Made by a program: the position numbers and the translations under genes
NCBI GenBank assembly: GCA_003224525.1
Contig: QHZB01000104.1
Coordinates: 1-49,010, forward strand
Source: Acidobacteriota bacterium
Lineage (GTDB): Bacteria > Acidobacteriota > Terriglobia > Acidiferrales > UBA7541
Reading direction: 5' to 3'
Length of the DNA: 49,010 nucleotides
In this document: positions 9,332-49,010 of the stretch, piece after piece
Numbering within the stretch: the first letter of the stretch is position 1
Layout: each line of letters begins with the position of its first letter
Notes under the pieces: model-generated
Databases searched by the model: none
The model's input: the letters and a program-made list of their open reading frames with translations, nothing else
What the model was told of the DNA's origin: nothing

Positions 9332-12300
9332 ATGAGGCATCGCTGCGTATTCTTGTCATTTGTGCTGACGCTAGCGTCTTTGCTGGGCTTCACCGGTTCG
9401 CTTTTCGGGCAAGGACAGGACCGCGGTATCATAACCGGGCTTGTCACTGATAACACGGGGGCGGCTATCCCAGAAGCGGTGGTCACGATCACGAACGAGG
9501 CCACCCAAGACAAAACCGTGGTAAGCACGTCTTCGGCGGGCAATTACAGTACCCCTCCGCTTATCCTCGGTACTTACAGGGTGCAAGTCGATAAGACAGG
9601 TTTCAAGCCCTTCGTCCGCACGGGCATCCCACTTGTAAGTGGCGCCACATATCGTATGGATGCCACCCTTGACGTGGGCTCTACTACAGAGAGCGTCGCC
9701 GTAGAGGCTTCGGTAGTCGACATCAACGTATCGAATCCAGAGGTTTCGAGCATTCTTGGGGCGAAGTACTACGAGGACTTGCCCGTAGTAATGGGCTCCG
9801 ACATCCGTTTGGCGGAATCGTTATTGAACGTGCAGCCCGGCTATGTTCCGATGCGCCCGAATGGTGACCCCATTTTTCGCGGGAGCCAGTTTATGTCCCG
9901 CATGAATGGCGGCCAGACCATGGCCATGGAGAATTATCTGGATGGAGCTTCGTTTGGAAGCGCCATCGACCACAACAACACTCAAGAGCGCTCGGTCCCG
10001 TACGACTCCGTACAGGAGATGAAGATCATTGACAGCAACTTCTCTGCTCAGTATGGGCGAACAAGCGGCGGCTTCGTCGAGTACACAACCAAGGCCGGTA
10101 CTTCGACATTTCACGGCAGTGCTTACGACTACTATAACTATCAGGGCCTAAATGCTAAAGGGGAACTGGTTGCTGCGGTCTCCCCGCAGCACAAGGAGAA
10201 CTGGGGATTCAGTGCGGGCGGCCCGGTCTTGATCCCCCACCTCTACGACGGCCGGAAGCATCAGACATTCTTTTTCGTAAACCTTGACGACCTCCACTTC
10301 ATGCAGGGCGCCCTTCCGAGTTTCGGCAATACCAACCCGATTCCTGCTTTCTTGCAGGGGAACTTTTCCCAAATCCTGAACACCGGTGCGGTCCTTGGGA
10401 CGGACGCGTTAGGCCGGCCGATCTACAGCGGTGAGATCTACAACCCGTCGACGACGCGGACTGTGAATGGAATATCGGTACGGGATGGCTACGGCTTTGA
10501 CGCAACGACGGGGCTTCCCATAGCTGGGGCCGCCAACATTATTCCAGCCAATGATCCTCTGAGGAGCGGTATTGCCGGCAAGTTGGCTGCGCTTATTCCG
10601 GCTCCGGACCGCTCTGGTCTGACAAACAACTCGTTTGTCCCGTCGGGAAACAAGTACATCAATCCCAAGACGTTGTTTGTCAGGGTGGACCAGTCTCTTG
10701 GAACCAACCTTAAGATGTCAACTTCGGTAAATGTAAATACTCGGCCTTCGTTGAGGCAGTGCGCGAGCTTCTCGAAAGGCTGCAACTTTACCGATCCTTC
10801 GAAATATTTCGGAGAAGGTTTTTATCAGGACATCACCACTCGGACCGTCCATCAGCAATTCAACTGGATTATCCGCCCCAACTTGTTCAATCACACCACT
10901 CTTTCGTTCGACCGCTGGGTGCTACCTGCTCATCCGGTCTCCGCAGGACAGCACTGGGTGTCCAGTCTGGGCCTAAAAGGGCCTATCAGCGATGAAGGAG
11001 GTGCTCCGAGGGTCTCATTCAACAGCCCTACTATCCCGTATTCGCATTACGGTGAGGCTGACCACGTCGCCGAGGGGGATATTGCCAACCGCTGGCAACT
11101 CCTCGACGATATTACCTGGGTGAAAGGTCGGCATACGATCACAGCTGGCTTCGAATACCGGCACCACCAATTTCCGACCATCGGTGATGGAAATGTAACC
11201 GGTAGTTATAACTTCAGCTACGCGGAAACGGCGGGATACAACGCCAATGGCGTCCAACAGATTCGCACCGGAGATCCGGTGGCCTCCTTCCTACTCGGTC
11301 AGGTGGACAACGCCAATTTCAGCATCAACTATCGGCATCTGCTCAATGAGCAGTACATCTCGCCTTGGGTGAACGACAATTTCAAGGTCACCTCGAACCT
11401 GACCCTAACGCTCGGATTGCGCTTTGACTACCAGGGGTGCTTGTCCGATTCCCGCGGTAACGAATCAACGTTTGATCCTAAAGCTGCGAATCCGGGGGCC
11501 GGTGGTCACCTCGGAGCGATGATCTTTGCGGGCAACGGCACGGGCCGGACCGGTAAGAATTGCTTCGAGGATCCCCCAAAGGACGCTTGGGGTCCGCGTC
11601 TCGGGTTCGCGTATCGTGTCGACAGCAAAACGTCGATTCGCGGCGGCTACGGCATCTACTATGGAGGTATTGCGGCCAATCAGTTTACAGGGTTTCCGGA
11701 GCTCGGCTTCTCCACGAACCCCACTGTCCCTAACTTCACCAGTGGTTTTGCCCCTGCCTTTTATTGGGACAATGGTTTCCCGCAGTCAGTGATCAAACTC
11801 CCACCCAGCATCGATCCAACCATAGCCAATGGACAGGGTCCTATCTGGGTAACGAAGGACAGTAAGAATCTGCCGCGTTATCAGAACTATTCCCTCACCG
11901 TGGAGCGCCAAGTCGGAGCAAGCCTGCTGCTCAGCGGGTCCTATATCGGCAACCACGGGACGCGGCTGCCTTCGAATGCTCCCACACTTGGACTGCTCGA
12001 TAACATGAACAATCCTTCTTTATTAGCCAAGTATGGGGAATCACGCCGCCTTACCCCGGCTTTCAGGGAGACGTGGCCCAGGCTCTGCGTCCCTGGCCTC
12101 AGTACACAAGGCTGAACGTTAAGAGTGTTCCGACCGGGTACAGCACGTACAACTCTTTCACAGCCAAGCTGGAAAAGAGATTCATGGGCGGACTCATCGG
12201 CCGTGTGGCTTATACCGTCTCCAAACTGATTAACAGCGGTGCCGATGACGTACTCGTGGGAGACAGTCCCGGGATCCAGAATCCACTCCTTGGCTCTCAA

Positions 12301-12882
12301 GATCGCCGCTCGCTAAGCAGAGACGACCTGCCAAGGTCCCTTATTCTTGCATGGTCTTATGAACTTCCCTTCGGGAAGGGCAAGAAATTCGCTGGAAATG
12401 CGAACCGAACTTTGGACGCGTTTATTGGGGGATGGACAATGGCAGCCACCCAACGCTACGATGCGGGACGTCCACTGAGCATAACTATGGCTTGCGACTT
12501 CTGCAGCGTTCTGTTCAGCAACACGAAACGGCCCAACAAGGTTGGGGATGGTTACAGCCATACCTCCAATGTCTTGACGCCCGGCGGTTATTTGAATCCG
12601 AGCGGCTGGGCTGATCCCGGCTCGTATGCGTTCGGTAATGCTCCATTACATGACGGGTCGGTCCGCAGCTTCCCGTATTACAACGAGGATCTCAATATCG
12701 CGAAACGGTTCCGAGTGACCGAGGGCGTGGGTATGCGGTTTGAGAGCCAGTTCGGCAATCTTTTCAACCGCCATCTGTGGTGCGATCCGGACACGAATTG
12801 GAGTAGTCCTACATTCGGCGAAGTGTTCGGACAATGCGATCAGCCACGGAACATTCAGTTCGGTTTGCGATTGGAGTTTTGA
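9332..12882 (+). pseudogene. TonB-dependent receptor with carboxypeptidase-regulatory-like N-terminus, frameshifted
   Basis: Signal peptide (FVLTLASLLGFTGSLFGQ), then a CarboxypepD_reg-like domain (GIITGLVTDNTGAAIPEAVVTI, GNYSTPPLILGTYRVQVDKTGF), a plug-like region, and a 22-strand-type barrel ending in the aromatic GLRLEF. The ATG at 9332 has GGGGGAGG 7 bases upstream. The reading frame breaks: frame one runs to 12115 but loses family sense after LLAKYG (about 12033), while another phase, open from before 12031, resumes with ITPPYPGFQGDVAQALRPWP and continues to the stop at 12882. The usual linker between these motifs is shorter than expected, so a small internal deletion of 1+3n bases is the likely cause. 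It would be an outer-membrane importer for glycan-like ligands; if truncated at 12115 it lacks the last strands and would probably not insert. Confidence 0.85.
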
Positions 12883-18660: not shown

Positions 18661-18698
18661 TTTTGAGCCCACGGGAAAACCGATTTGTCATTGATTAA

Positions 18699-19847
18699 TT
18701 ATTTCCCGAACTGTGTATCCCATTCCTTGACCTTGGCGATTGTGTAATTCACTTCTTCGGCAGTCAACTCGGGGAACATCGGCAAAGAAACGCATTGTGC
18801 TGCGTTCGCCTCGGCGTTTGGCACGTGCGGGTTCGGATCCGCCGGCTTGTTCCACGGATAGCCTTCCTGTTTGTGAATCGCAATAGGGTAGTGCATCTTC
18901 GCATCGATACCCGCCGCAACCAGGAATTGCGCGAGGTGATCGCGCTTGGGGTGCTCCACAACGTAAAGGTGATATGCGTGGCGATATCCTGGCATTTCCT
19001 TCGGAAGCTTCAGACTAGTGCCTATAAGTCCCTCGGTATAGCGTTCGGCCCACGCTCGTCGCTGATCGGTCCACTTCCTAATATGCTTTAGCTTCACGCT
19101 CAGGAATCCTGCGTGGAGATCGTCCAGCCGACTATTGAACCCAAAGGTGTGCACGGATCGCTTCAGCGATCCGTGGTTGCGCATCCGCCGCAAGGTTTCG
19201 TCAATCTCCGGCCGGTTGGTGGTGAGCGCGCCGCCGTCGCCAAAGGTCCCCAGGTTCTTCTGGATGATGAAGCTGATGCACACTGCATCGCTCAATTCAC
19301 CCTGTTTGAATCCGTCTCCATGTGCATCAACGGACTGCGCGTTGTCCTCGACAACCCATAGCTTGTGTTTTTTCGCGATCGCGCTGACCGCCTTCATGTC
19401 GGCGCAATGTCCGTAAAGATGCACGGGCACGATGCCCACCGTGCGCGGCGTGATCGCGGCTTCAATCTTCGTGGGATCGATGTTATTGGTCGCCCGATCG
19501 GAATCCACGAACACCGCTCTACCCCCTGCGATCCAGATGGCTTCAGCCGTCGCAAAGAAGGTGTTCGCGGTTGTGATCACTTCATCGCCAGGACGGATGC
19601 CCAGCGCCATGAACGCAAGCCACAATGCGTCCGTACCCGAGTTCACCCCGACGGCGTATTTCAGGCCAAAATAGTGGGCGAGTTCCTTTTCGAAGCGCTC
19701 CAGCGTCGGACCCATTACGTAGGATTCGCTTTCGATGACGGCGTGGAAAGCTTCGTCAATCTCGCTCTTAATGCTGTAGTACTGGCGGGCGTGACCATAG
19801 AATGGGACCGTCATTTTCGGAGCGGGCGCCGGTTTGGACGTGGTCAT
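18699..19847 (-). CDS. DegT/DnrJ/EryC1-family sugar aminotransferase
   Basis: 382 residues. The ATG at 19847 is chosen because GAGGAGAAG precedes it; an upstream ATG (19901) adds 18 unrelated residues. Fold-type I PLP enzyme: GTDAL (71-75) binds the phosphate, VEDNAQ supplies D168 for the pyridine nitrogen, and K197 in IIQKNLGTFGDGG is the aldimine lysine. The C-terminal half has RHAYHLYVV and IDAKMHYPIAIHKQ typical of the family. Members transfer an amino group to nucleotide-linked keto-sugars (NDP-amino-sugar synthesis for LPS or exopolysaccharide); the exact sugar cannot be told. No other nucleotide-sugar genes are nearby, so it stands alone, divergent from the gluconolactonase. Confidence 0.92.
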   Translation of the reverse strand: MTTSKPAPAPKMTVPFYGHARQYYSIKSEIDEAFHAVIESESYVMGPTLERFEKELAHYFGLKYAVGVNSGTDALWLAFMALGIRPGDEVITTANTFFATAEAIWIAGGRAVFVDSDRATNNIDPTKIEAAITPRTVGIVPVHLYGHCADMKAVSAIAKKHKLWVVEDNAQSVDAHGDGFKQGELSDAVCISFIIQKNLGTFGDGGALTTNRPEIDETLRRMRNHGSLKRSVHTFGFNSRLDDLHAGFLSVKLKHIRKWTDQRRAWAERYTEGLIGTSLKLPKEMPGYRHAYHLYVVEHPKRDHLAQFLVAAGIDAKMHYPIAIHKQEGYPWNKPADPNPHVPNAEANAAQCVSLPMFPELTAEEVNYTIAKVKEWDTQFGK

Positions 19848-20273
19848 GATTCTTCTCCTCAAATTCACGAACCAACGGAGTGGTGCCCGCTGACCCAGCA
19901 AATTTATTCGGAGGAAGCAGTGCGGGTCAAGTATTAAATCGGTTCAGTGAGGGTGTTGCGAAATCCCGGTTTAATGGAGACTTCGGCAGACACGAAGACC
20001 TAGGCGGTTTCCTCGGATTGCGACTCCCAGGCGATTGCGCGCTGCGTCTCGCTGTCGCAGGAGAGATGTCGAAGTCCAGTGCCCGCCGCGCTTACCGGAC
20101 ATCGTCACAAAACCACGTGGTCGATTATCTGACTACATTCAGGTGAAAGCTGACCGTTTCTGAACTGGGCAGGGGACATCTAATCGCCCAGAGTTAACGG
20201 AAACGGGTATGTCACGACAGAACAGGCCGTGATAATGTGCGTCGGAGCGGATTTTCCCGCCGGAGGGAGACCG
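19848..20273. other. Divergent promoter region, no motif identified
   Basis: The 426 bp between the divergent aminotransferase and gluconolactonase genes. Both have good ribosome sites at its edges (GAGGAGAAG on the minus strand, GGAGGGAGA on the plus strand), so two promoters must lie here, but I see no distinct operator or hairpin. Confidence 0.35.
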
Positions 20274-21308
20274 ATGCAGAGACGAACGTTTATGAACGTT
20301 GCGGCGAGCGCTGCAACGGCACTGGCATTCAATCCTTTGGCGCTTGCCGAGGAGCAAGAACGGAAAAGTCCGGTCGTCTATCCCGATCCCGCGGTTGAGG
20401 AGACTGACCCGCGCTTCGCAAAATACAGGGTCGGCAATGCGGCTGTCGAGCGCATATACACAGGCACGCGGTGGGCGGAAGGGCCGGTGTGGTTTGCGGA
20501 TAGCCGGTATTTGCTCTTCAGCGATATCCCCAACAACCGAATGCTGCGATGGGTCGAGGAGACCGGAGAGGTCAGCGTCTTCCGCAGCCCCTCGAACTAC
20601 AGCAATGGCAATTACCGGGACCGGCAGGGAAGGCTGCTCACCTGTGAGCACGACGCGCGCCGGGTAACGCGAACCGAATACGATGGCACTATCACCGTGC
20701 TCATGGACCGTTATCAAGACAAGAAACTCAATGCGCCGAATGACCTGGCAGTGCATTCCGACGGAGCGATCTGGTTCAGCGATCCGGGCTACGGCATCAT
20801 GTCGAATTACGAAGGACATAAAGCGGCGTTCGAGTTGCCCGCGGTCGTTTACCGGCTGGACCCGAAGACCCGCGAGGCGACCGTCGTTGCCAGCGACATG
20901 GATAAGCCCAATGGCCTGTGTTTCTCTCCCGACGAGAAACTGCTCTACACTGTGGATACGGGAGTTCCACGACACCCCGGCGACCCGCGTCCGATTCGCG
21001 TGTATGACGTTGTGGATGGCGTACGGCTGAAGAATGGCCGGACGTTTGTGAATATGTCGCCGGGCTCATCCGATGGCATCCGTTGCGATGTGGACGGCAA
21101 CGTCTGGTCCGCTGCCGGATGGGCAGGAGAAGGCTACAACGGCGTGCATGTTTTCGCGCCCGACGGCAAGCTCATTGGCAAGATTCATCTTCCGGAAACG
21201 TGCGCAAACCTCTGTTTTGGTGGCGCCAAGAAAAACAGGCTATTCATGGCGGCGAGCCAGTCTCTCTACGCGGTCTACGTCGAGACCCAGGGCGCCCAGT
21301 TGCCCTGA
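20274..21308 (+). CDS. Tat-exported SMP-30/gluconolactonase-like protein
   Basis: 344 residues from ATG 20274 (GGAGGGAGA upstream). MQRRTFMNVAASAATALAF is a twin-arginine signal, so the enzyme is exported folded. The six-bladed SMP-30/Gnl/LRE propeller is shown by WAEGPVW (metal-binding Glu), NNRMLRW, LNAPNDLAVHSDGAIWFSDPG, DKPNGLCFSPDEKLLYTVDT and SSDGIRCDVDGNVW. Family members hydrolyse sugar lactones such as glucono-1,5-lactone with a divalent metal. In the periplasm it would act after a membrane or periplasmic sugar dehydrogenase, which is not encoded here. It is followed by a repeat mosaic rather than a pathway gene. Confidence 0.9.
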   Translation: MQRRTFMNVAASAATALAFNPLALAEEQERKSPVVYPDPAVEETDPRFAKYRVGNAAVERIYTGTRWAEGPVWFADSRYLLFSDIPNNRMLRWVEETGEVSVFRSPSNYSNGNYRDRQGRLLTCEHDARRVTRTEYDGTITVLMDRYQDKKLNAPNDLAVHSDGAIWFSDPGYGIMSNYEGHKAAFELPAVVYRLDPKTREATVVASDMDKPNGLCFSPDEKLLYTVDTGVPRHPGDPRPIRVYDVVDGVRLKNGRTFVNMSPGSSDGIRCDVDGNVWSAAGWAGEGYNGVHVFAPDGKLIGKIHLPETCANLCFGGAKKNRLFMAASQSLYAVYVETQGAQLP

Positions 21309-21360
21309 CAACATAAATGTTTTCGGAGGATCCCTCGGCTTCGCGATTTGCTGTTCTGTG

Positions 21361-26026: not shown

Positions 26027-26490
26027 GGCGCCCTCTCGACAAGAAGATTCGGTGTGTCTATTACGCGACTTGCGGCGATTCGACTCACGATAAGACCGGA
26101 GATTCCATAAACTTGACACACCACGACAGAAGAATCGAAAGGCGCTTAGCATCGCGGCTATCCTTTTCGGGCTAGAGGGGCTTCAGGGTACGAGGAAGAA
26201 TCGAAGCTGAAACCGGGCCCATAAGCTAGAGATGATTTGACCCCAGCGGTCAGTGCGATTTTCACTCTAGCTCCGAAAGGGGACAAGTATGTGTTTAGAC
26301 AACTTGTGAATGGGTGTGTCCTATCGAGCAAACGAGCATTTTGAGGAGGGAACTAGTGTGCCGTCCCGGAAATACGTTCACATCGTCGCTGGACTTTCGC
26401 AAAGATCGAATCGGCCGTGGCGGTCCAGACGAACGGCTGCGCGTGGGTGTTGGAAGCTCGCACCTATTGATCGATTTTCTCCACCTGTCA
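26027..26490. other. Upstream region of the lipoprotein gene, no gene recognised
   Basis: About 460 bp between the lipoprotein start and the first IS end. It should contain the minus-strand promoter of the lipoprotein gene, but I see no reliable boxes. Short frames on both strands (26295-26573) lack any family resemblance. Confidence 0.35.
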
Positions 26491-27902
26491 CTGGCGAATT
26501 GATACGGTGGAAGAGAAACGATCGGATCCGCGAAGCGCGCAGCGACCAAGAACGCAAACACCAGATGGTTTAGTTGGAAGTTTTCCCGAGGTTGACCGAA
26601 TTACGCAGCGATCGAGAGCCGTATCTGGCGAATTGTTATACGGGGGGCAATTTTACCGGTAATCGCGCTGCGAAAGTGAGCTGTGTCTCAGTTCCGGAAC
26701 GCACGAGGTGGCAGTGAACAGTGAATTGATCGGAGCCGCGGAATGCCTGCGGAGAAACACCGAATGATTTCTTGGAAGTCTTGCCGAGTTCGACCGAATG
26801 TCGCAGCGATCAAGAGTCTTTTGAAAATCACGCAGCCACTGGCGTCTGATATAGGTTCCGACAGTGAGATTGCGATCCAAACGAGCGGAGAGCCGAAGGG
26901 TGCCGATTAGCCTTTCCACGAACGGATGGGGAAGGGGAACGTAGGGGACGGTTTTGATTTCTTTCACTTCCAGTATCCGCAAGTTGGCCTGCCATTGGTG
27001 GGAAGCGATAGAGCGGATCATGGTCGGAGCTGAGGTACTTCGGCATCCCGCGTTGCCCTTGAATGGCGTGGTTGAACATCCGACACAGTACGCCCCCATC
27101 AACTGTTCCCGCCTGAACGCCTAAGCCAATGATCCGGCGCGTGAATTGATCCATGACGACCAGAACCCAATGGGTCCGCAACGTAGCCGACTCGCACCTG
27201 AACAGATCCATACTCCAGAGACTGTCTTTCATGTGGCCCAGGAACCTCAGCCAGGAGGGACCATCGGAGTTCTGTCCCGGTCGGTAGTGATGGGCGAGAA
27301 TCCTGCGAACCACGTCTTTGTCGATTTGGATGTTGAACGCAAAGGTGATCTGTTGTGCGATTCGCGGACAGCCCCAGTTGGGATTACGTTGCTTCATTTC
27401 GACCACCAAATGGATGAGTTCTGGGCTCGGTCCTTTCGGGCCGGGCTTCCGAGGGCATTTCAGTGAAAATAGCATGCGGTACTTTTGCTTGCTCATGGCT
27501 TTGTGAAGGCCCAGCAGTGTCGAAGGCTTCAGTAGGATTGCCGAACGAAGGAACGAAGCAGACGAGTTGGACCCACCAAGATCGCCATCCAGCCGGCAAG
27601 GATGCGGTCCCGCGCGGATAGATTCGGCGATCGTTGCCGGGAGCGATTCAAGATCAGGAGCTGATGCCTGAGGAGAAGCGACTCCGCAACTAGGGAACGG
27701 ACGCCACCAGGTCCAAGCAGGCGGGCCAGCGTGGCCAAGAAATGGATAAACAGAACGACCAAATGGCGCATCGAAGAATGGTAGCAGGACGGGAAATCCT
27801 GACGAATCATGGGCGAAATAGCAATTCGCCAGCCACAGGTATAATCGTGGCCATGATCACACGCCGCGATTCCCTCGTGGGAGCCAAATAACAATTCGCC
27901 AG
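26491..27902 (-). mobile_element. Decayed IS with doubled ends (nested insertion)
   Basis: CTGGCGAATTG occurs at 26491 and 26625, and its inverted form CAATTCGCCAG at 27822 and 27892, so each flank carries two IS ends. The right-end sequence after 26501 is repeated, with divergence, around 26700-26830 and again at 43235-43345. The simplest reading is one element (26625-27832) inserted next to or inside a relative whose ends remain (26491, 27902). The enclosed transposase reads on the minus strand and is broken. Confidence 0.75.
26810..27772 (-). pseudogene. rve/DDE transposase, copy 1, broken by frameshifts and an internal deletion
   Basis: The gene starts on the minus strand with MRHLVVLFIHFLATLARLL (ATG near 27772). 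At 27543-27558 GAACGAAG is duplicated in tandem; removing one copy joins LLRS to AILLKPSTLLGLHKAMSKQK, so this 8-bp duplication is the cause of the first frameshift. The middle frame (to 26828) has WSMDLF (first catalytic D) and YLSSDHDP (second D). A second shift near 27000 moves to the frame with HQWQANLRILEV and LPHPFVERLIGTLR (catalytic E). Compared with the copy at 43315, about 165 bp after GTLR are missing. Inactive as it stands. Confidence 0.8.
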
Positions 27903-29048: not shown

Positions 29049-29264
29049 ATGAAAAAGAGTTTCTTACTGGGTCTGGCGGGATTTTTCTGTTTGTTGGCGG
29101 CGTCTTCGCGCGTGGTGGCGCAGGCGCCGGAAAGGGAATCGAGAGCCCCGGAAGCCAAGGCTCCGGACAAATGTGATCCGGCCACTTCCAAGGAAGAGTC
29201 TTCGGTAACCGAGCACACCATCAAGATCGGCTCGCAGACCATTCCCTACAAAGCCACGGCCAGC
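29049..29264 (+). pseudogene. N-terminal remnant of a peptidase S10 (serine carboxypeptidase) family protein
   Basis: MKKSFLLGLAGFFCLLAASS is a signal peptide with GGGAG before the ATG. It is followed by [20 protein letters not shown], the segment that opens acidobacterial secreted S10 peptidases. The family should continue for over 400 residues with GESYGG-type motifs; here the reading frame ends at codon 79 because sequence switches to an aldehyde dehydrogenase tail at about 29263. Confidence 0.65.
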
Positions 29265-29412
29265 GGGAACCATCGGCGTGAATGACGGCGCTCCGTCGAC
29301 CAGCCAATGCCCATTCGGCGGTATCAAGCAGAGCGGACGGGGACGCGAACTGGGCAGCGAAGGCATGGATGCTCTCCTCGAGACCAAGCACGTCTCGATC
29401 GCCGGAGTGTAA
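29263..29412 (+). pseudogene. C-terminal remnant of an NAD(P)-aldehyde dehydrogenase
   Basis: In the frame ending at TAA 29410-29412 the translation [26 protein letters not shown] and [11 protein letters not shown] is the unmistakable end of a succinate-semialdehyde/glycolaldehyde-dehydrogenase-type ALDH. The catalytic Cys and cofactor domain are absent. It lies 50 bp before the SuyA-like gene, so the complete ancestor may have been the first gene of that operon, for example oxidising sulfolactaldehyde to sulfolactate (inference). Confidence 0.8.
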
Positions 29413-29462
29413 TCGGGCCAAGGGTTCGTAGTGGAGGAATACAAAACGCGAGGAAGGGAATC

Positions 29463-29741
29463 ATGATCCATTTCTTAGTTCACGATCCATCCGACGATGT
29501 AGCGGTTGCGGTGGTCGATATCTCCGGCGGCACCAAATGCACGGGTCGCGATCTGGTCAAGAACAAGAAGATCGCGCATACCGTCACGCAGGACATTCCG
29601 CTGGGTCATAAATTCGCCCGGCACGACTGCGTCGTCGGCGACACGCTCAGGAAATACGGCACCGAGATCGGGAAAGTCGTGAAGCCGATCAAGGCCGGCC
29701 AGCACGTTCACGTTCATAACCTTAAGACGAAAAGGTGGTGA
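29463..29741 (+). CDS. suyA: UxaA-family small subunit, (2R)-sulfolactate sulfo-lyase alpha-like
   Basis: 92 residues with GAGGAAGGG upstream of the ATG. It is a stand-alone SAF-type domain, equivalent to the N-terminus of altronate/galactarate dehydratases: DIPLGHKFARHD, IGKVVKPIKAGQHVHVHNL and terminal KTKRW. In the fused sugar-acid dehydratases this domain is part of a roughly 500-residue chain; a separate small subunit followed at once by a roughly 390-residue large one is the SuyA/SuyB arrangement. SuyAB cleaves (R)-sulfolactate to pyruvate and sulfite. A split altronate-type dehydratase with another hydroxy-acid substrate is the alternative. Confidence 0.65.
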   Translation: MIHFLVHDPSDDVAVAVVDISGGTKCTGRDLVKNKKIAHTVTQDIPLGHKFARHDCVVGDTLRKYGTEIGKVVKPIKAGQHVHVHNLKTKRW

Positions 29742-29747
29742 TCGATC

Positions 29748-30911
29748 ATGGCTCGGAAAAAGATCCACGCATACCGCCGGGAAAACGGGAGAGTAGGGGT
29801 CCGCAATCATGTGGTGATTCTGCCCGTCGATGACATCTCGAATGCCGCGTGCGAGGGCGTTGCCAACAACGTGAAGGGCACGATGGCGCTACCTCACTCC
29901 TACGGCCGGCTTCAGTTCGGCGAAGACCTCGAGCTGTTCTTCCGCACCATGATCGGGACCGGCAGCAATCCAAACGTCGCCGCGGTTGTTGTGATCGGCA
30001 TCGAGCAGGGCTGGGCGCAGAAGATCGCTGACGGTATCGCCAAGACCGGCAAGCCGGTCGAGGCGTTCTCGATCGAGGGCCGCGGCGACATCGGTACAGT
30101 TGCCGCCGCTTCCTACTGCGCCAAGGAAATGGTGCAGTGGGCGACCGAGTTGCAGCGCACCGAGTGCGACTTCAGCGAGTTGTATATCAGCGTCAAGTGC
30201 GGCGAGTCGGACACGACCACGGGGCTGGCGAGCTGCCCCACCGTCGGCAATCTCATCGATAAGCATTGCGCGAGCAAAGGCACAGCCTCGTTCGGCGAAA
30301 CGACCGAACTGACGGGCGGCGAGCATATCGTTGCCGCGAAGGCCACGAATGCAGCGGTTCGCGCGCAGTTCATGGCGGCGTTCGACGACTATCAGAAACT
30401 GGTCTTCTCGGAGAAGACCGACGACCTTTCCGAGTCGCAACCGACGAAGGGAAACATCGCCGGCGGCCTGACAACGATCGAGGAAAAGGCGCTTGGTAAC
30501 ATCGAGAAGCTTGGTAAGAAGACTAAGTTCGTGGGCTGCCTGAAGCCGGCGGAAGCGCCGTCGAGTCCGGGACTGTGGTTTATGGATACGTCGAGCGCAG
30601 CCGCGGAAGCCGTGACGCTGTGGGCAGCATCCGGCGCCGTCGTGCACTTGTTCCCAACGGGTCAAGGCAATGTGATTGGCAATTCGATCGAGCCGGTGAT
30701 CAAGCTGTCGGGAAACCCGAAGACCGTCAAGACGATGAAAGAGCACATCGACCTCGACGTCTCCGCGATCCTGCAGGGCGAAATGACGCTGGATCAGGCC
30801 GGCGACGCGCTGATCGAGATGGTGGTCCGCACGGCAAACGGACGATTCACCTCGGCCGAAGCTCTCGGACACCGTGAGTTCGTCATGACAAAACTGTATC
30901 GCAGCGCATAA
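29748..30911 (+). CDS. suyB: UxaA-family large subunit, (2R)-sulfolactate sulfo-lyase beta-like
   Basis: 387 residues, 6 bp after the small subunit. Motifs: [114 protein letters not shown] and [11 protein letters not shown]. These belong to the UxaA/GarD iron-dependent lyase family, and the wording and length agree best, as far as I can recall, with SuyB rather than with UxaA or GarD. With the next two dehydrogenases it reproduces the known sulfolactate set. Cytoplasmic; no signal peptide. Substrate assignment is inference from family and neighbours. Confidence 0.65.
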
Positions 30912-30944
30912 CCGGGGGATACGAGCGCACTTGACGGGGGAATT

Positions 30945-32027
30945 ATGCAGAAACGTTTTCCGGCAGTTCAGTTAAAGAACTTGGTTGTCGAACTCTCCTG
31001 TGCGGCCGGAGTCTCCCGGGAAGATGCCGCGTTGTTTGCGAACGCATTGATCGACGCGGACCTCCATGGGGCTTCGACGCACGGGATTTCACGGCTGGCG
31101 ATTTATCTGAACCGAATGGAAAAGGGATTGATCGATCCGAAAGCGCAGTTGTTCATCGACCGCCGAGTTGGCAGCGCGCTCGCGCTCGATGCGGCGAATG
31201 GGCTCGGACAAGTGCAGGCGACCAAGGCCGTCGACATGCTGATGCCGATCGCCCGGCAGAATGGAGTCGCAGCGGCGACGATCCGGAGGTCGCAGCATTT
31301 CGGCGCTCTTTCGTTCTACTGCAACCGAGCCGCAGCGGAAGAGTGCATCTTGCTGGCGATGACGGCGTCCGAGCCGGCCATGGCGCCGGAAGGAGGCTCG
31401 GATGCTTTCTTCGGCACCAATCCGATCGCCAGTTCCTTCCCGACCTCCAAGGGGTATCCCGTCAAGATCGATCTGGCGACGTCGAAGGTGGCACGCGGCA
31501 ATATCATCGCCGCGAGCAAAGAGAATGTGCCCATCCCCGAGGACTGGGCTTTCGACGTCGATGGCGGTCCCACCACCGATCCGCATAAAGCACTCCTCGG
31601 AACCGTGGCCACCATGGCCGGCCACAAGGGCTACGCGCTCGCGTTGATGGTGGAAATGTTCTGCAGCGTGTTGTCGGGCGCCGCGATCGGTTCCGACATC
31701 GGTTCGATGTACAAGAATCTTGACCGCAGTCAGAACGTCGGCCATTTCTTCCTGGTGCTCGACATTAACGCGTTCATGGACCGGGAGCAGTTTGTGCAGC
31801 GAGTGGACGCAACGATCAACAAGCTCAAATCGGGACGCAAGCGTCCGGCGACCGACGAAATCCTTGTGCCAGGCGAACGATCGTCGCGTACCGCCAAGCA
31901 GATCGCCGAAATTGGCGTGCCAATTTCCGACGAAACCCTGGCGGAACTCCAAGACTGGTGCACTCGACTCCAAGTAGGGATTTCTCTCAAGCCGACTGAA
32001 TGCAGAGACACATGCGCGATATCTTGA
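30945..32027 (+). CDS. Malate/L-lactate (Ldh2)-family dehydrogenase, ComC/(R)-sulfolactate dehydrogenase-like
   Basis: 360 residues, GGGGGA before the ATG. The fold is that of the NAD(P)-dependent malate/L-lactate/ureidoglycolate dehydrogenases (LDH2/MDH2): HGASTHGISRLAIYLNRM near the N-terminus, the catalytic-histidine segment RRSQHFGALSFYCNRAA, FFGTNPIASSFPT, KIDLATSKVARGNI and GHKGYALALMVEMFCSVLSG. ComC, the (R)-sulfolactate dehydrogenase, belongs here. It overlaps the next gene by 28 bases; the last residues after LAELQDWCTRL may be read-through. In the Chromohalobacter pathway ComC and SlcC together convert (S)- to (R)-sulfolactate through sulfopyruvate. Confidence 0.8.
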   Translation: MQKRFPAVQLKNLVVELSCAAGVSREDAALFANALIDADLHGASTHGISRLAIYLNRMEKGLIDPKAQLFIDRRVGSALALDAANGLGQVQATKAVDMLMPIARQNGVAAATIRRSQHFGALSFYCNRAAAEECILLAMTASEPAMAPEGGSDAFFGTNPIASSFPTSKGYPVKIDLATSKVARGNIIAASKENVPIPEDWAFDVDGGPTTDPHKALLGTVATMAGHKGYALALMVEMFCSVLSGAAIGSDIGSMYKNLDRSQNVGHFFLVLDINAFMDREQFVQRVDATINKLKSGRKRPATDEILVPGERSSRTAKQIAEIGVPISDETLAELQDWCTRLQVGISLKPTECRDTCAIS

Positions 32028-32987
32028 TTTCAGAGAGCATTACCGGCGCCGCGGTGGACCGACTCTCGGCACGGTTCAACGTTGTGCACCTGCCGGAACT
32101 CTGGAAGAACCCCGAACTGCTGGCTGAGCGCATTCGCAATGCGAGCGCATTGATCGTGCGCAACCAGACGCGAGTCACGCGCGATGTGTTGCGCGCGGCG
32201 CGGGAGTTGCTCGTTGTTTCGCGGGCGGGCGCCGGACTCGACAATATCGACGTCGAAGCCGCTACCGAAGCCGGCATTCTCATCACCTATGCACCGAACC
32301 AGAACTCCATCAGCGCCGCCGAACACACCATGGCGCTGCTGCTCGCGCTGGCGCATCGCGTGACCGCCGCCGATGTGGACACCAAAGCCGGTGGCTGGAA
32401 CCGTCACCGCTTCTTCGGGCATGAGATTTACGGCAAGAGGCTCGGCATCATCGGCCTCGGAAAGATCGGATATCTAACCGCCATGCGCGCGCAGGCTTTC
32501 GGGATGAATATCCTGGCGTGCGATCCGCAGGTCAGCCGTGACAACGTGTATGTGGCGCAACTGAATGCCCAGCTGGTCGATCTCGAGGAGTTGCTGGAGA
32601 ACGCCGATTTCGTGTGGTGTCACGTGCCCTCGAACGTGCAAACGATTGGCATGCTGAACCGGGAGCGGATCGCGAAGATGAAACCGACGTCGTGCATCAT
32701 TAATACCGCGAGGGGCGAAGTGATTGAAGAAGCGGACCTAGGTCGATGCGCTGAAATCGGGCAGGATTGGCGGCGCCGCCCTCGATGTGCGCGCCTCCGA
32801 GCCGCCGGCCAGGGGCGAACTCGAAACCTTGCCGAACGTGATCCTCACGCCACACATCTCGGCTTTTACGGAAGAAGCCCAGGACCGCGTCACGCGGGCG
32901 GTTTGCGAGGATGTTGCGCGTGTGCTCGAGGGGAAGCCGCCGGAATATCCGGCCAATCGTCCGCGGTCGCGTCCAGTACTGGCCTGA
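32000..32987 (+). pseudogene. D-isomer-specific 2-hydroxyacid dehydrogenase, SlcC-like, frameshifted
   Basis: ATG at 32000 or 32012 (MRDILISESITGAAVDRLS). NAD-binding GxGxxG-type motif in LGIIGLGKIG, substrate-binding SRAGAGLDNID, catalytic arginine in INTARGEV and histidine in TPHISAF. At 32737-32743 the sequence CCTAGGT carries one base too many: without the A at about 32740 the frame continues as LVDALKSGRIGGAALDVRAS and ends PRSRPVLA at 32987, 328 residues. As sequenced the product loses the catalytic His. SlcC, (S)-sulfolactate dehydrogenase, belongs to this family. Confidence 0.75.
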
Positions 32988-32988
32988 G

Positions 32989-33807
32989 CCGCTACTCGGC
33001 AGCGCGCTCGACGCGAATCCTCGGATCTGCGGAGTCATCTCGTGGTGTGCATTTGACTACGCGAGCCTCGTCAATTCCTACAACACGGTCAAGACGCCCG
33101 GGGTCGCCGACGTGTTTCGCATCCCGAAGCTCGGCGCATCGTTCTACCTCGCGCAAGTCGATTCGAAACTCCGTCCCGTCATCGAGCCCAGCTTCTATTG
33201 GGATTTCGGACCGCACACACCGAATGGACCCGGCAGGCACGCTGCGATCTCCTCCAACTGCGATCAGCTGGAAGTGTTCGTCGTCGGCCAGCGCCACTCG
33301 ACACTCCGTCCAGATACCGAAAACTTTCCGTACTTGAAGCACGCGCCGTTCTTCCCAGACCTGGAATTGGAAGGCCCGGCACATCCCGAGCTTCGGATTG
33401 ACGGATAGGTGGGCAACCGAGCGGTGCTGTCCCGTTCATTCTCCTCGGATCCCGCGGCCGATCAGTTTTTCCTCGCCGCGGACGACTCTGTGCTCACCGG
33501 CGATGGCGCCGATTCAACACGCGTGGTCTTCAAGATCGTCGACAAGTACGGCGCCGATCGTGCCTTTGCTACCGGCGAAGTCAGGTTCGAAATGGACGGG
33601 CCGGCAGTCATCGTGGGTGACAACCCGTTCAAGCTCGACGATAGCGGTGGGGTTGGAGCGATCTGGATACGGACGGTATCGAATGGACGAGGGAAGGTCC
33701 GCTTCTCGGCCAGCCACTCTGTGCTAGGCGGCAAGAGCGTGGAACTCGAGGTGAGACCTGCGGGATCCGCTCGGCGCCAAGTCGATCAAAGCGAATTTCA
33801 TGATTAA
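32989..33807 (+). pseudogene. C-terminal remnant of a GH2 (beta-galactosidase-like) glycoside hydrolase with nonsense mutation
   Basis: Directly after the SlcC-like stop, the frame gives ANPRICGVISWCAFDYAS, FRIPKLGASFYLAQ and LEVFVVGQRHSTL, the end of a GH2 TIM barrel followed by its C-terminal beta domains. At 33406-33408 a TAG replaces what is likely TAC (Tyr) in LRIDG-Y-VGNRAV; the same frame stays open afterwards through DGADSTRVVFKIVD and SVELEV. The N-terminal sugar-binding domains and most of the barrel are absent. The final residues (AGSARRQVDQSEFHD) are just leader sequence of the next fragment. Confidence 0.7.
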
Positions 33808-34081
33808 TCGTTTCTCCCAGCCCGCTTCTCTCATCTTCATCGCCGGTGCAATCGCCTCGGTCACGTCGTTCGTCAGCCCGCCGCTCGCGCTCGGCCTGGT
33901 CTTCGGGTTGCTGTTTACGCATCCCTTCCGCTCCGAGAGCAGGCGGTTGACCAGGACACTGCTACAGGCCTCGGTCGTCGCGCTCGGCTTCGGCATGAAC
34001 CTCCACCAGTTGGTCGCGGCCGGACGCAGCGGTTTCGTCTACACGGCCGCGGCGTATGGTCAAAAATCTCAAACGCACTGA
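33800..34081 (+). pseudogene. N-terminal remnant of a YeiH-type putative sulfate exporter
   Basis: MINRFSQPASLIFIAGAIAS, SPPLALGLVFGLLFTHPF and LLQASVVALGFGMNLHQLV match the first membrane helices of the YeiH/Cons_hypoth698 family (putative sulfate exporter). Family members have about 330 residues; this one leaves the family after FVYTA and ends at codon 93. A sulfate/sulfite exporter beside a sulfite-releasing lyase is biologically sensible, but this fragment cannot be functional. Confidence 0.7.
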
Positions 34082-43063: not shown

Positions 43064-43231
43064 CGCCAGTGCCTTGCGGCAAAGGACCCAGCGCCTTCCC
43101 GACAACCGCGCCAAGCATTCGGTTCCTATCTCTTCCTTTCATCGCGTGACCGGGAGTGGAGGATGCAACCAGTAGATCGCCTGCTTGAATCGGACCGTTC
43201 TCCGCGCTGACTTTGCAAGGCACGATGCCTG
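43035..43231 (-). pseudogene. C-terminal remnant of a collagen/tail-fibre-type protein cut by an IS end
   Basis: On the minus strand IVPCKVSAENGPIQAGDLLV, ASSTPGHAMK and GKALGPLPQGTGVIQVLVTL match the conserved C-terminal domain of large acidobacterial surface proteins. The family resemblance begins exactly after the IS end CTGGCGAATTG (43235-43245), whose translation RINSPETG replaces the native upstream residues. So the IS end abuts and truncates the gene. Confidence 0.6.
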
Positions 43232-43234
43232 TCT

Positions 43235-43875
43235 CTGGCGAATTGATACGGTGGCAGTGAAACGATCGGATCCGCGAAACACGCTGCAACTAAGAACGCA
43301 AACTCCAGATGATTTCATGCGAGGTTTTTGCAGAAGTTGACCGGACACCACAGCGCGAGTCTTTGACAAATCAGGCGGCGGCTGGTGTTTGGTATAAGGA
43401 TCGACAGGGTGGTTGCCATCGAAACGAGCCGAGATTGGCTACTGGTCGTGACACGGTTGTATCCGGCGTTCGCCTCTAGTGAGGCATGCGTGCGATGGTT
43501 GTTGAAGTAGGTCCTGAAATCGAGCAGCTTGTTTTCGAGATCTGCCGTTGTCCAGAACAACGTGTGATCCAAGTACTCGCGTCGAAGGGTGCCGATGAGC
43601 CTTTCCACGAATGGATGGGACAGGGGAACGTAGGGGATGGACTTGATTCCTGTCACCTCCAGTATCCGCAGATTGGCTTGCCATTGGTGGAACCGATAAA
43701 GCGGATCGTTGTCGGAGCTGATGTACTTCGGCATCCAGAGTTGCCCTCGAATGGCGCGGTTGAACATCCTACAGAGTGCGACACCATTGAGCGTTCCCGC
43801 ATGGACGCCGAACCCAATAATCCGGCGCGTATATTGATCCATGACCTGCTGATGGGCTTTGAGCACCCTGTGCAT
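43235..43875 (-). mobile_element. Truncated IS, copy 2, with C-terminal half of the transposase
   Basis: CTGGCGAATTG at 43235-43245 is the right end. The minus-strand frame to 43315 encodes VMDQYTRRIIGFGVHAG, YISSDNDPLYRFHQWQANL (catalytic D), HPFVERLIGTLRREYLDHT (catalytic E) and FRTYFNNHRTHASLE, the second half of the same rve transposase as at 26810-27772. The N-terminal third, including HTH and first Asp, is replaced by unrelated sequence before about 43846. It keeps the segment deleted from copy 1. Confidence 0.8.
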
Positions 43876-46674: not shown

Positions 46675-46806
46675 CTTCAAACCGTGTACTGGAATGGATT
46701 CGTCATCGAACCACTGGAAGCCGTTTGCTTCCCGAACGAGTCGTATATGTGTTCCACCCACCCGTTTTCCGTGTATGCTTGGACCAATTTGTAGCAGAGG
46801 GGCTTT

Positions 46807-48069
46807 ATGGCGACGGTGAGCCGAACAACGCCAATCACGGAAACGACGCCGATTCTACGGGAGGCGGCCCCCGTAAAACCAGCCGCGGTGCGCAACGTCG
46901 CAATAGACGCGTATCGCGGATTGGTCATGCTGTTGATGATGGCGGAGGTGTTGCAGCTTTCCCGCGTGGCTGTGGCGTACCCAACGAGCCTGTTCTGGAA
47001 AATTCTGGCCTTCAATCAGACTCATGTGGAATGGTTTGGCTGCTCTCTGCACGACACCATTCAGCCGGGCTTCTCTTTCCTGGTTGGTGTGGCACTGCCG
47101 TATTCCATAGCCAGCCGCATCGCGAAGGGTGCGCGCTTCGCTGAATTATTCGGGCACGCACTGTGGCGTTCATTGGTGCTGGTTGCGCTGGGCGTATTCC
47201 TCCGCTCGATGGACCACTCCATGACCTATTTCACTTTTGAAGATACGCTCTCACAGATCGGATTCGGCTATCCGTTTCTATTTCTGCTCGGATTCTATTC
47301 GTCGCAAGCCGGATCGGGGAAGCGGGCGTGGGCAACGCTCGCCTTGGTTCTCGTGGGATATTGGCTAGTGTGGGCGCGATATCCCGCGACGCCAGCGAAT
47401 TTTGACTGGAGGAGCGTGGGTGTTTCTCCAGAGTGGAACGCTCACCATAATTTCACTGGTTTCGCCGCGCATTGGAACAAGAACTACAATTTTGGAAACC
47501 GCTTCGACCAATGGTTCCTGAACCTGTTCCCGCGTGAAAATCGTTTCGAATACAACTCCGGTGGATACCTCACGCTGAGTTTCATTCCCACGCTGGGCAC
47601 GATGATCCTGGGCCTGATTGCGGGAGTCTGGTTTCGCGAATCGCGGCCCAAGATCCCGATGAAGAAGCTGTTGATTGCCGGTGTGTCGGGGATTGTATTG
47701 GGATTGGCGCTGCATTACTCGCACATTTGCCCGGTGGTGAAGCGGATTTGGACGCCGTCCTGGACTATCTTCAGCGGAGGCATCTGCTTCTTGTTCCTGG
47801 CCGCGTTCAGTTGGGTGATTGATGTGAAGGGTTTGAAAAAATGGGCCTTCCCGCTAGTGGTCATCGGCATGAACTCCATCGCTGCATACTGCATCGCTCA
47901 CTTCACGGAAGGGTTTCTGGAGAGCACTTTCCGAATCCACCTGGGTCCGAGTTTCTTTCAGTTCGCCGGCGCGGGGCTGCAACCATTTTTTCAGGGCGCC
48001 GCGATTCTGCTGTGCTATTGGCTAGCGCTGTTTTGGATGTATCGACGAAAACTGTTCCTGAAGATTTAG
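46807..48069 (+). CDS. Membrane acyltransferase, DUF5009/HGSNAT-like
   Basis: 420 residues, GAGGGG upstream of the [23 protein letters not shown] opens the heparan-alpha-glucosaminide N-acetyltransferase-like family. About ten hydrophobic helices follow, with [19 protein letters not shown] on the first loop (conserved His), [40 protein letters not shown] and [14 protein letters not shown]. Members transfer acetyl groups from cytoplasmic acetyl-CoA to sugars on the outer face of the membrane. Substrate unknown; the convergent deacetylase-like gene next to it might act on the same class of glycan, but this is only positional. Confidence 0.88.
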
Positions 48070-48119
48070 GGCCCGACATCCGACAAGTGCAGTTGCACAA
48101 ATTCGAGCGATGAGTACGG

Positions 48120-49010
48120 CTATTCGCTTGGTTTCGCTGGTTTGAGGGTCCAAGCTTGCAGCCGCGCCAGTTCCATCAGGTGCTCCGAATGGAATCCCGT
48201 CGGGAAGATCGGCCACGACCATATCTCCGGTGAGTCCAGAGCGACATACTTTTCGGTGGCAAGCCGCGCGGGCGCGACCGTCACGTTTTCCGGCGCCACG
48301 CCGCCATTCGCGCTCTTGCTGGCGATCTTCGCCATCGCCACAAGAAATACCTCGGGAGCTACGGGCTTACTGCCCAACCAAACTGCGTTAGGAATCTGGT
48401 GATGGCGCTGAATGAAACTGTGCAGGTCATGCACGCTACGCTCGAACTGCGACCAGGGCACTTCGATCGGCTCGCTCAGCGGCGGCGAGGGCAGGCTCGG
48501 TCCGTAGACGGTGAAGGGAAGAGTCACCTTCGCGTCAGCGCCGGGCTGGGATAGCATCCACTCGGTAACGAGCGTCATGACTTCGGCGGGAGAGAGCGTA
48601 TATGTCCCGCGAACCTGGAAGCTGACTTCCCATTCTACTTGGCGTGCGATTTCCGCGAGTTCGCTGGCGCTGAACCTGTGTCCGCGAGCGCCGTCCGCAT
48701 ACAGGCGCGTCGCCTGCGGCCCGGTGATGAACTGTACCTGAGGAAATGACTTCATGTAGCGTACGAGCTGTTCAAAGTAGCTGAACGCGCGCTCACGAGA
48801 ATCCGGAGGCCGCAAGGGATAGGTTCGCCATTGGTCGCGCGGCGGATTGGCGCCGCGGGCAAAGTTCATGTCCCAGAACTGGCTATGGATAAACTCGCAC
48901 GGGTGAAAGTAAAGGCTGACCAGCCCGCCGCCGTTACGGGTCATCTGTTCGTAGAACTGGCGAAACTTTGTCTTGCTCTCTTCAATGTTGGTCCACTCGT
49001 CATTGGGACG
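48120..49010 (-). CDS. C-terminal part of a polysaccharide-deacetylase-like protein (5' end outside window)
   Basis: Open on the minus strand from the window edge to a stop at 48120, 296 residues seen. GGLVSLYFHPCEFIHSQFWD followed by NFARGANPP and PPDSRERAFSYFEQLVRYMK resembles the final part of NodB/deacetylase-fold domains, where the histidine of FHP closes the active site. A second domain (TYTLSPAEVMTLVTEWMLSQ, VPWSQFERSVHDLHSFI, IPNAVWLGSKPVAPEVFLVA) is seen in large uncharacterised exported proteins of soil bacteria; I cannot name it. The N-terminal metal-binding motifs would lie outside the window. Confidence 0.5.
   Translation of the reverse strand, partial: RPNDEWTNIEESKTKFRQFYEQMTRNGGGLVSLYFHPCEFIHSQFWDMNFARGANPPRDQWRTYPLRPPDSRERAFSYFEQLVRYMKSFPQVQFITGPQATRLYADGARGHRFSASELAEIARQVEWEVSFQVRGTYTLSPAEVMTLVTEWMLSQPGADAKVTLPFTVYGPSLPSPPLSEPIEVPWSQFERSVHDLHSFIQRHHQIPNAVWLGSKPVAPEVFLVAMAKIASKSANGGVAPENVTVAPARLATEKYVALDSPEIWSWPIFPTGFHSEHLMELARLQAWTLKPAKPSE

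Follow-up and report, generated by a model that had tools for sequence, protein, structure and literature searches.

A probable remnant of an acidobacterial operon linking sulfosugar breakdown to sulfolactate cleavage

Why would a set of sulfolactate genes stand between gene fragments in an acidobacterial genome? The question is raised by a 49,010-nucleotide stretch, hereafter the window, from an Acidobacteriota bacterium of the UBA7541 lineage (assembly GCA_003224525.1, contig QHZB01000104.1, positions 1 to 49,010). On its + strand, at 29263–34081, lie in order the 3' end of an aldehyde dehydrogenase (ALDH) gene, suyA, suyB, comC, slcC, the 3' part of a GH2 gene and the 5' part of a YeiH-type exporter gene. 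The first-pass annotation had named the four central genes, in this order, as a SAF small subunit, a UxaA-type large subunit, an Ldh_2 protein and a D-2-hydroxyacid dehydrogenase, and Pfam matches bear this out. We propose, as the likely explanation, that an acidobacterial operon joining sulfoglycolysis to sulfolactate cleavage was acquired horizontally and then eroded, the module being the tail half that survives. Its parts are listed here, with L004 denoting the related locus of another acidobacterium.

29263..29412, + strand: 3' remnant of an ALDH gene, sulfolactaldehyde-dehydrogenase-like in intact relatives; the L004 alignment starts at 29263
29463..29741, + strand: suyA, intact, predicted (R)-sulfolactate sulfo-lyase small subunit with SAF domain (PF08666; 90% identity to L004)
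29748..30911, + strand: suyB, intact, predicted (R)-sulfolactate sulfo-lyase large subunit (PF20629/PF04295; SuyB clade at 100/100; GarD-like model)
30945..32027, + strand: comC, intact, Ldh_2-family candidate (R)-sulfolactate dehydrogenase (PF02615; NCBIfam and PDB sequence matches)
32012..32987, + strand: slcC, D-2-hydroxyacid dehydrogenase and candidate (S)-sulfolactate dehydrogenase (PF02826/PF00389), frameshifted near 32740, two frames required
33012..33765, + strand: 3' remnant of a GH2-type glycosidase gene with an internal stop at 33406–33408 (PF18565; 78% identity to L004 13931–14684)
33800..34081, + strand: 5' remnant of a YeiH-type (PF03601) sulfate/sulfite exporter gene, PF03601 below cut-off, 55% identical to the L014 exporter

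The lyase pair anchors this reading. SuyA (PF08666, 28.6 bits; cut-off 21) is a separate SAF subunit adjoining a GD_AH large subunit, the arrangement typical of SuyAB, and SuyB matches PF20629 (277.5 bits) and PF04295 (115.3 bits). In a tree of 38 hand-chosen sequences, several of whose outgroups the tree program flagged as long branches, the window SuyB falls inside a 25-member SuyB clade (100/100, stem 1.65), where it pairs with L004 (99/94) within a seven-member acidobacterial group (100/100). The same clade holds the proteins of P. versutus, where suyAB adjoins a sulfate-exporter-family gene, and of C. pinatubonensis HN-2, where suyAB shares one stretch with hpsN and hpsO; the window protein is 68% identical to both. 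The clade excludes altronate and galactarate enzymes as well as five split UxaA large subunits (28–40% identity). The clustering with altronate and galactarate dehydratases that the first-pass annotation had named as counting against its reading did not occur, and its assignment of the four genes as SuyA-SuyB-ComC-SlcC is supported. In NCBIfam, SuyA and SuyB match galactarate dehydratase only, and weakly (25.1 and 127.5 bits; cut-off 730.85), so the identity of the pair rests on the tree and the neighbours. The predicted SuyB structure superposes on E. coli GarD 6u7l (Z 40.8, 2.4 Å over 329 residues), a resemblance that any member of the superfamily should show, and the other matches of the fold search are mostly partial, over residues 18–138. 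On sequence grounds, we predict that the pair is a SuyAB-type (R)-sulfolactate sulfo-lyase.

SuyB relatives also occur on plasmids. In a plasmid collection, 13 of 313 matching records reach at least 60% identity to SuyB, and among the 30 matches listed identity drops from 61.0% to 39.9%. Two plasmids carry split UxaA pairs at only 34–37% identity to SuyB: one from Haloarcula litorea (L217), beside a sulfate-exporter-family gene and an Ldh gene, and one from Variovorax (L216), beside a hydroxyacid dehydrogenase gene and an Ldh gene. These pairs are possible distant sulfolactate lyases.

The two dehydrogenases fit the same set. ComC is intact (PF02615, 370.7 bits); its best NCBIfam model is L-sulfolactate dehydrogenase (267 bits, below the equivalog cut-off of 500), and L-sulfolactate dehydrogenase 2x06 is the second of its PDB sequence matches (214.7 bits, after 1vbi at 229.1 bits). 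SlcC is present as the first-pass annotation had said; what did not hold is that its gene could be counted as whole. As assembled, slcC runs in one frame to about residue 247 of its open reading frame (ORF) and in another from there to a stop at 32985–32987, the frame shifting near 32,740, whereas in L004 and other relatives it is one open frame. Both parts are 78–79% identical to L004. The same four gene types are known from Chromohalobacter salexigens, for which, according to papers citing Denger & Cook 2010, (S)-sulfolactate is proposed to pass through sulfopyruvate to (R)-sulfolactate, which SuyAB cleaves to pyruvate and sulfite. Compared with that system as the citing papers describe it, the window differs in its frameshifted slcC and in having no recognised importer or SuyR gene adjacent, and the intact acidobacterial relatives differ in carrying a GntR-type regulator gene (in place in seven of nine).

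What did the module look like before it lost parts? We scanned a species-genome collection for SuyB loci, keeping the best 80 of 191, and added a sample of the phylum. Thirteen acidobacterial loci carry this SuyB type: L004–L014, all in metagenome-assembled genomes (MAGs), plus L144 (genome G437) and L145 (genome G188) from the phylum sample. L146 is not counted, being the L014 locus again (in rpoB, its genome, G361, and L014's genome agree in both score and coordinates). The SuyB proteins of L004–L014 are 83–90% identical to that of the window. The four-gene arrangement is not chance, as the same genes stand in the same order in 12 of the 13 loci; the exception is L008, where slcC is not recognisable.

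Nine of these loci (L004, L006, L009, L011, L012, L013, L014, L144 and L145) share a longer order in which genes for a phosphofructokinase (PFK) and a fucose/arabinose-type isomerase lie upstream of ALDH, followed by suyA, suyB, comC and slcC. By homology, then, isomerase, kinase and ALDH stand next to suyAB in 9 of 13 loci, the PFK of L006 being cut by a contig end and short of the coverage filter. The GntR gene sits between isomerase and ALDH in seven of the nine; it is downstream in L014 and was not found in L012. L005 and L007 are not judgeable, their contigs ending at most 0.8 kb upstream of suyB. The first-pass annotation had argued that the ALDH tail and the exporter fragment fit the use of sulfoquinovose or sulfolactaldehyde, and the intact relatives, in which an ALDH of this kind lies upstream together with genes for an isomerase and a kinase, agree with it.

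Among control loci, an isomerase relative occurs in 1 of the 69 other SuyB loci (L015–L083), namely L024 at 25% identity, and in none of ten acidobacterial loci with another SuyB type (L147–L156, some on short contigs). Searched from the isomerase side, the 396 genomes of the phylum sample contain it at 54–56% identity in four (G188, G330, G361 and G437), the next match being at 22%, and suyAB adjoins it in three of those four.

In three Opitutae MAGs (L015–L017), suyAB at 76–80% identity is accompanied by transaldolase-family and ROK-family relatives, and L015 and L016 also have ALDH, comC and an exporter-family gene (Pfam being applied to L015). Outside Acidobacteria, these loci likely represent the joined pathway in a form that uses a transaldolase.

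The gene order suggests a route. The isomerase would convert a 6-sulfo-sugar, most likely sulfoquinovose, to a ketose, which the PfkA-type kinase would phosphorylate; a LacD/DeoC-type aldolase or a transaldolase would then release sulfolactaldehyde and a three-carbon piece, and the ALDH would oxidise sulfolactaldehyde to (S)-sulfolactate. SlcC and ComC would carry (S)-sulfolactate through sulfopyruvate to (R)-sulfolactate, SuyAB would split this into pyruvate and sulfite, and the YeiH-type exporter may remove the sulfite. The order proposed in the accessible parts of the literature, from (S)-sulfolactaldehyde over (S)-sulfolactate, sulfopyruvate and (R)-sulfolactate to SuyAB, explains why such a pathway needs a racemase. 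In its fullest form the proposal is of a horizontally moving acidobacterial operon that would take sulfoquinovose or sulfofucose to pyruvate, a triose piece and sulfite within one cell. It would do so by a hybrid route that combines a fucose/arabinose-type isomerase, a PfkA-type kinase that perhaps uses pyrophosphate, a LacD-type aldolase or a transaldolase, an ALDH, SlcC/ComC inversion and SuyAB, and a neighbouring DUF5054 protein may be a glycosidase of a new type, freeing the sugar. We advance this version tentatively and at somewhat less than even confidence.

A model of the L144 isomerase (mean pLDDT 77) superposes, for most of its length, on arabinose isomerases (Z 27.1, 3.4 Å over 417 residues) and fucose isomerases (Z 25.7, 3.3 Å over 414). 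The L004 kinase scores 367.5 bits against the pyrophosphate-dependent (PPi) PFK subfamily model (cut-off 273). Typical PFKs carry a GGDG motif, and the motif is GGNG in all six acidobacterial kinases examined. In the available portion of the work on RlGabD, Arg171 and Arg289 together with a Trp-Asn-Phe motif are proposed to bind the sulfonate; all nine acidobacterial and both Opitutae ALDHs examined have the arginine pair and the motif. Distant relatives of the isomerase occur on plasmids: one from Chlorohelix (26% identical to that of L144) stands with a PPi-type PFK, an ALDH of the succinate-semialdehyde dehydrogenase (SSADH) type and a nitrite/sulfite reductase, and one on Zymomonas pZZM402 (24.6%) has as its neighbours an SSADH-type ALDH, a class II aldolase and an epimerase. 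Among the 13 plasmid records matched, none exceeds 26%.

A DUF5054 protein is encoded on the isomerase–PFK stretch in four genomes (L144:14209–16290, L145:14545–16707 and, in part, L004:11733–12176 and L143:5–295, L143 being the isomerase locus of G330). In the ORFs covered by the Pfam scan no GH31 protein could be recognised, which makes DUF5054 a candidate glycosidase for freeing the sulfosugar.

Several observations weigh against the proposed operon history and its assigned functions. The best NCBIfam model for the L004 isomerase, the only isomerase so scanned, is sulfoquinovose isomerase SftI, and its 155.5 bits fall far short of the cut-off of 700; its PDB sequence matches are four arabinose isomerases. 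The arginine pair and Trp-Asn-Phe motif of the ALDH are, by alignment, shared with E. coli SSADH. A LacD/DeoC-family aldolase was found in only four of the nine full-order loci (L009, L012, L144 and L145) and a transaldolase near the operon in one (L013); a partial LacD/DeoC-family gene lies at the edge of the L007 stretch, and neither enzyme was found in the stretches examined of L004, L006, L011 and L014. Where LacD is present, in L144, it scores 296 bits against tagatose-1,6-bisphosphate aldolase and 44 bits against the sulfofructose phosphate (SFP) aldolase 7ag7, so that its closest solved structure is not an SFP aldolase. L008, with 3.6 kb of upstream sequence, and L010, with 7 kb and only GntR in it, have suy genes but neither isomerase nor PFK, and L143 (C150:77000–96000) has PFK, isomerase and GntR with no suyAB, ALDH or dehydrogenases recognised in 19 kb; L143 is perhaps a version of the operon ending elsewhere. 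The frameshift or a junction in the window could be an assembly fault, the assembly being a draft of 516 contigs. Finally, the ratio of nonsynonymous to synonymous divergence (dN/dS) from L004 proved uninformative as a pseudogene test, the remnants being as constrained as the other genes: it is 0.07 for suyA and suyB (suyA: dN 0.056, dS 0.77), 0.12 for comC and the first part of slcC, 0.14 for the second part, 0.008 for the ALDH tail and 0.117 for GH2. That remnants still look constrained implies that the genes eroded only recently compared with the time since the split from L004.

Some of these points feed the strongest alternative, that the front end serves another sulfosugar, such as sulfofucose by way of sulfotagatose, or an ordinary sugar whose genes merely neighbour the sulfolactate module. 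It would account for LacD matching tagatose-bisphosphate aldolases first, for the arabinose/fucose-isomerase likeness of the isomerase, and for the suy-free locus of G330; a Paracoccus sulfofucose pathway joined to SlcC/ComC-SuyAB is published as well, though of the Entner–Doudoroff (ED) type in the text available. On the other side, the best curated family of the isomerase is still sulfoquinovose isomerase, and the Chlorohelix PFK, isomerase relative and SSADH-type ALDH stand with a nitrite/sulfite reductase. We consider this alternative unlikely, and take the sugar, from gene content, to be either sulfoquinovose or sulfofucose.

How much of the joined operon is left in the window? Aligned to L004, the window matches at 79% over 29263–33009. 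The ALDH tail upstream of suyA, noticed in the first-pass annotation, is real: 150 bases remain, and 46 of 48 residues are identical to the L004 ALDH. Downstream of slcC, 3,669 bases of L004 are absent (an MFS gene and most of the GH2 gene). After GH2, L004's genome continues with a DUF6259 gene and then a short YeiH-like stretch; in the window the exporter remnant comes straight after GH2, so that a second piece seems to be missing. The exporter fragment of the earlier description does not reach the PF03601 cut-off (19.3 bits against 24.5; a 93-residue ORF with residues 27–83 matching), yet it is 55% identical over 74 residues to the exporter-family gene of L014, which passes (171 bits), and we accept it as a piece of such a gene. 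L203 has a similar short exporter remnant after GH2 and DUF6259. The front end was not found elsewhere in the genome: a search with the whole of L004 DNA returned the two window stretches and two short weak matches (98 and 190 bases), and the isomerase is absent from this genome (best match 24%, 34.6 bits). The window locus accordingly lacks the sulfoglycolytic set of sulfoquinovose isomerase, sulfofructose kinase, aldolase or transaldolase, and sulfolactaldehyde dehydrogenase.

These losses bear on a second alternative, that the module still works here, SlcC and ComC racemising sulfolactate and SuyAB cleaving it, with the frameshift a sequencing or assembly error. Intact suyA, suyB and comC, two well-conserved parts of slcC, and the example of L010, which has suyAB-comC-slcC with only GntR of the other operon genes upstream, all suit it. 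Set against them are the frameshift as assembled and the remnant state of three neighbouring genes; moreover, the window ORFs next to the module include no recognised sulfolactate source or importer. We regard a working module as improbable, and the racemisation set that the first-pass annotation saw in this copy is not supported as a working one, with slcC frameshifted, ALDH nearly gone and the isomerase not in the genome. At most, judging by its intact genes, this copy could still cleave (R)-sulfolactate.

Where did the copy come from? Its genome (G000) and that of L004 share 75.3% rpoB identity, whereas L004's genome shares 80.0–82.4% with the genomes of L006, L008, L009, L011, L013 and L014 and with G188, G330 and G437. 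The module proteins rank the other way: between window and L004, ComC is 80% and SlcC 78% identical, compared with 61–67% and 56–63% between the window and the other acidobacterial loci measured. The G+C content of the module is 60.4%; the two flanks measured each have 55.8%, and its L004 counterpart has 62.1%. This SuyB type is in none of 35 congeners, some of them incomplete, and the flanks match congeners: 88% to G016 at 18661–20016, 91% to G008 at 20140–21309 and 98% to G016 at 46731–48944. The left edge at 29262/29263 is abrupt, the ALDH tail abutting the start of a gene with congener counterparts; the last 140–154 bases of this 5' part are 79–80% identical to four congeners and 280–309 bases 70–72% to two. 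The G+C contrast, a closeness to L004 beyond that of rpoB, the losses and the native flanks together point to horizontal gain followed by recent erosion, and the window module is probably such a copy between genus-native flanks. The operon would have come from an L004-like lineage and later lost the isomerase, kinase, regulator, nearly all of ALDH, most of GH2, DUF6259 and most of the exporter, slcC being frameshifted.

A chimeric assembly, in which a foreign 4.8 kb piece was misjoined into the contig, is a third and rather remote alternative. The draft state of the assembly, the sharp left edge and nearby repeats are what it would predict, but misjoining alone would leave unexplained the two internal losses relative to L004's genome, the frameshift and the stop, and both flanks match the genus. 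Less credible still is a split altronate/galactarate-type hydroxy-acid dehydratase operon with no sulfonate link, the fallback of the first-pass annotation: the sole NCBIfam match, the GarD fold and the split UxaA pairs known in other settings lend it something, and it is rejected at the sequence level by the SuyB tree, which places the protein with SuyB and outside altronate dehydratases and GarD, and by the 68%-identical relatives near hpsN/hpsO or a sulfate-exporter-family gene, a neighbourhood echoed by the exporter remnant in the window.

Features around the module complete the picture of the region.

29050..29262, + strand: 5' part of a host-genus gene with a signal-peptide-like start, ending abruptly at 29262 (sequence and congener matches); its start, in an ORF that has no Pfam match, presumably resembles an S10-type carboxypeptidase
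26828..27496, - strand: remnant of an IS481/IS3-type transposase gene, left of the module (36.8 and 35.3 bits, below cut-offs; pieces 84–85% identical to 43228–43845)

Repeat pieces at 26484–27157 and 43228–43845 flank the module in the same orientation, 84–85% alike, and the left one holds the transposase remnant. Farther left, overlapping ORFs at 9332–12115 and 12073–12882 resemble one gene broken near 12.1 kb, which we take to encode a TonB-type outer membrane protein. Six of the 35 congeners (G020, G019, G007, G009, G010 and G002; loci L147–L151 and L153) have another suyAB type, at 69–71% to the window SuyB, as does L152 in class member G060, listed with them; L147–L152 have a GntR-family gene on the stretch that is only 25–29% identical to that of L004.

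How much of this is new? The first-pass annotation had called sulfonate catabolism little described in this phylum; in the available portion of Hausmann 2018 (PMC6018796), peatland acidobacterial MAGs are already reported with suyAB, comC and slcC (SbA5) and with suyAB (SbA4). The four genes in Acidobacteria are thus not new. SbA4 and SbA5 share phylum and genes with the window; they are described there as capable of sulfite reduction, whereas G000 has no DsrA above cut-off, and the same portion makes no mention of isomerase, kinase or aldolase genes beside suyAB. Dissimilatory sulfite reduction was considered for G000 and rejected, DsrA model scores being at most 35.5 of 392.85 bits, with sub-cut-off matches also in 8 of 14 control genomes.

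The parent locus with its front end is less expected than suyAB-comC-slcC itself. As summarised in the accessible text of PMC9594981 and PMC12890257, the second variant of sulfoglycolysis of the Embden–Meyerhof–Parnas (EMP) type, sulfo-EMP2, uses SqvD (PF02952), SqiK (PF00365) and SqiA (PF01116). The intact acidobacterial loci resemble it in their fucose/arabinose-isomerase-type protein, PF00365 kinase and ALDH, and differ in an aldolase of PF01791 (LacD) rather than PF01116, with a transaldolase in L013. The part of a 2026 review open to us places sulfo-EMP2 in Firmicutes only and EMP1/2 hybrids in Proteobacteria and Actinobacteria. A sulfosugar front end joined to SuyAB, as proposed for the acidobacterial operon, is described, in the sections available, as extended sulfoglycolysis in Thermotogae and Chloroflexi (PMC9594981) and as a tandem sulfofucose-SuyAB pathway, also with SlcC/ComC, in Paracoccus wurundjeri (PMC12421959); those belong to other phyla and use transaldolase or ED-type routes, whereas the acidobacterial front end contains a kinase. 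Sulfolactaldehyde dehydrogenases of sulfoglycolytic clusters have been surveyed, and the available portion of that survey names five phyla, of which Acidobacteria is not one. In the open-licence literature, among the matches listed and the papers cited here, the joined acidobacterial operon did not turn up; judged by titles and abstract starts, PMC6018796 alone concerns these genes in Acidobacteria.

Should the proposal hold, single cells of bacteria from a major soil phylum could turn a plant-derived sulfosugar into free sulfite with no cross-feeding partner, and the window would be a case of such an operon being handed on and afterwards lost.

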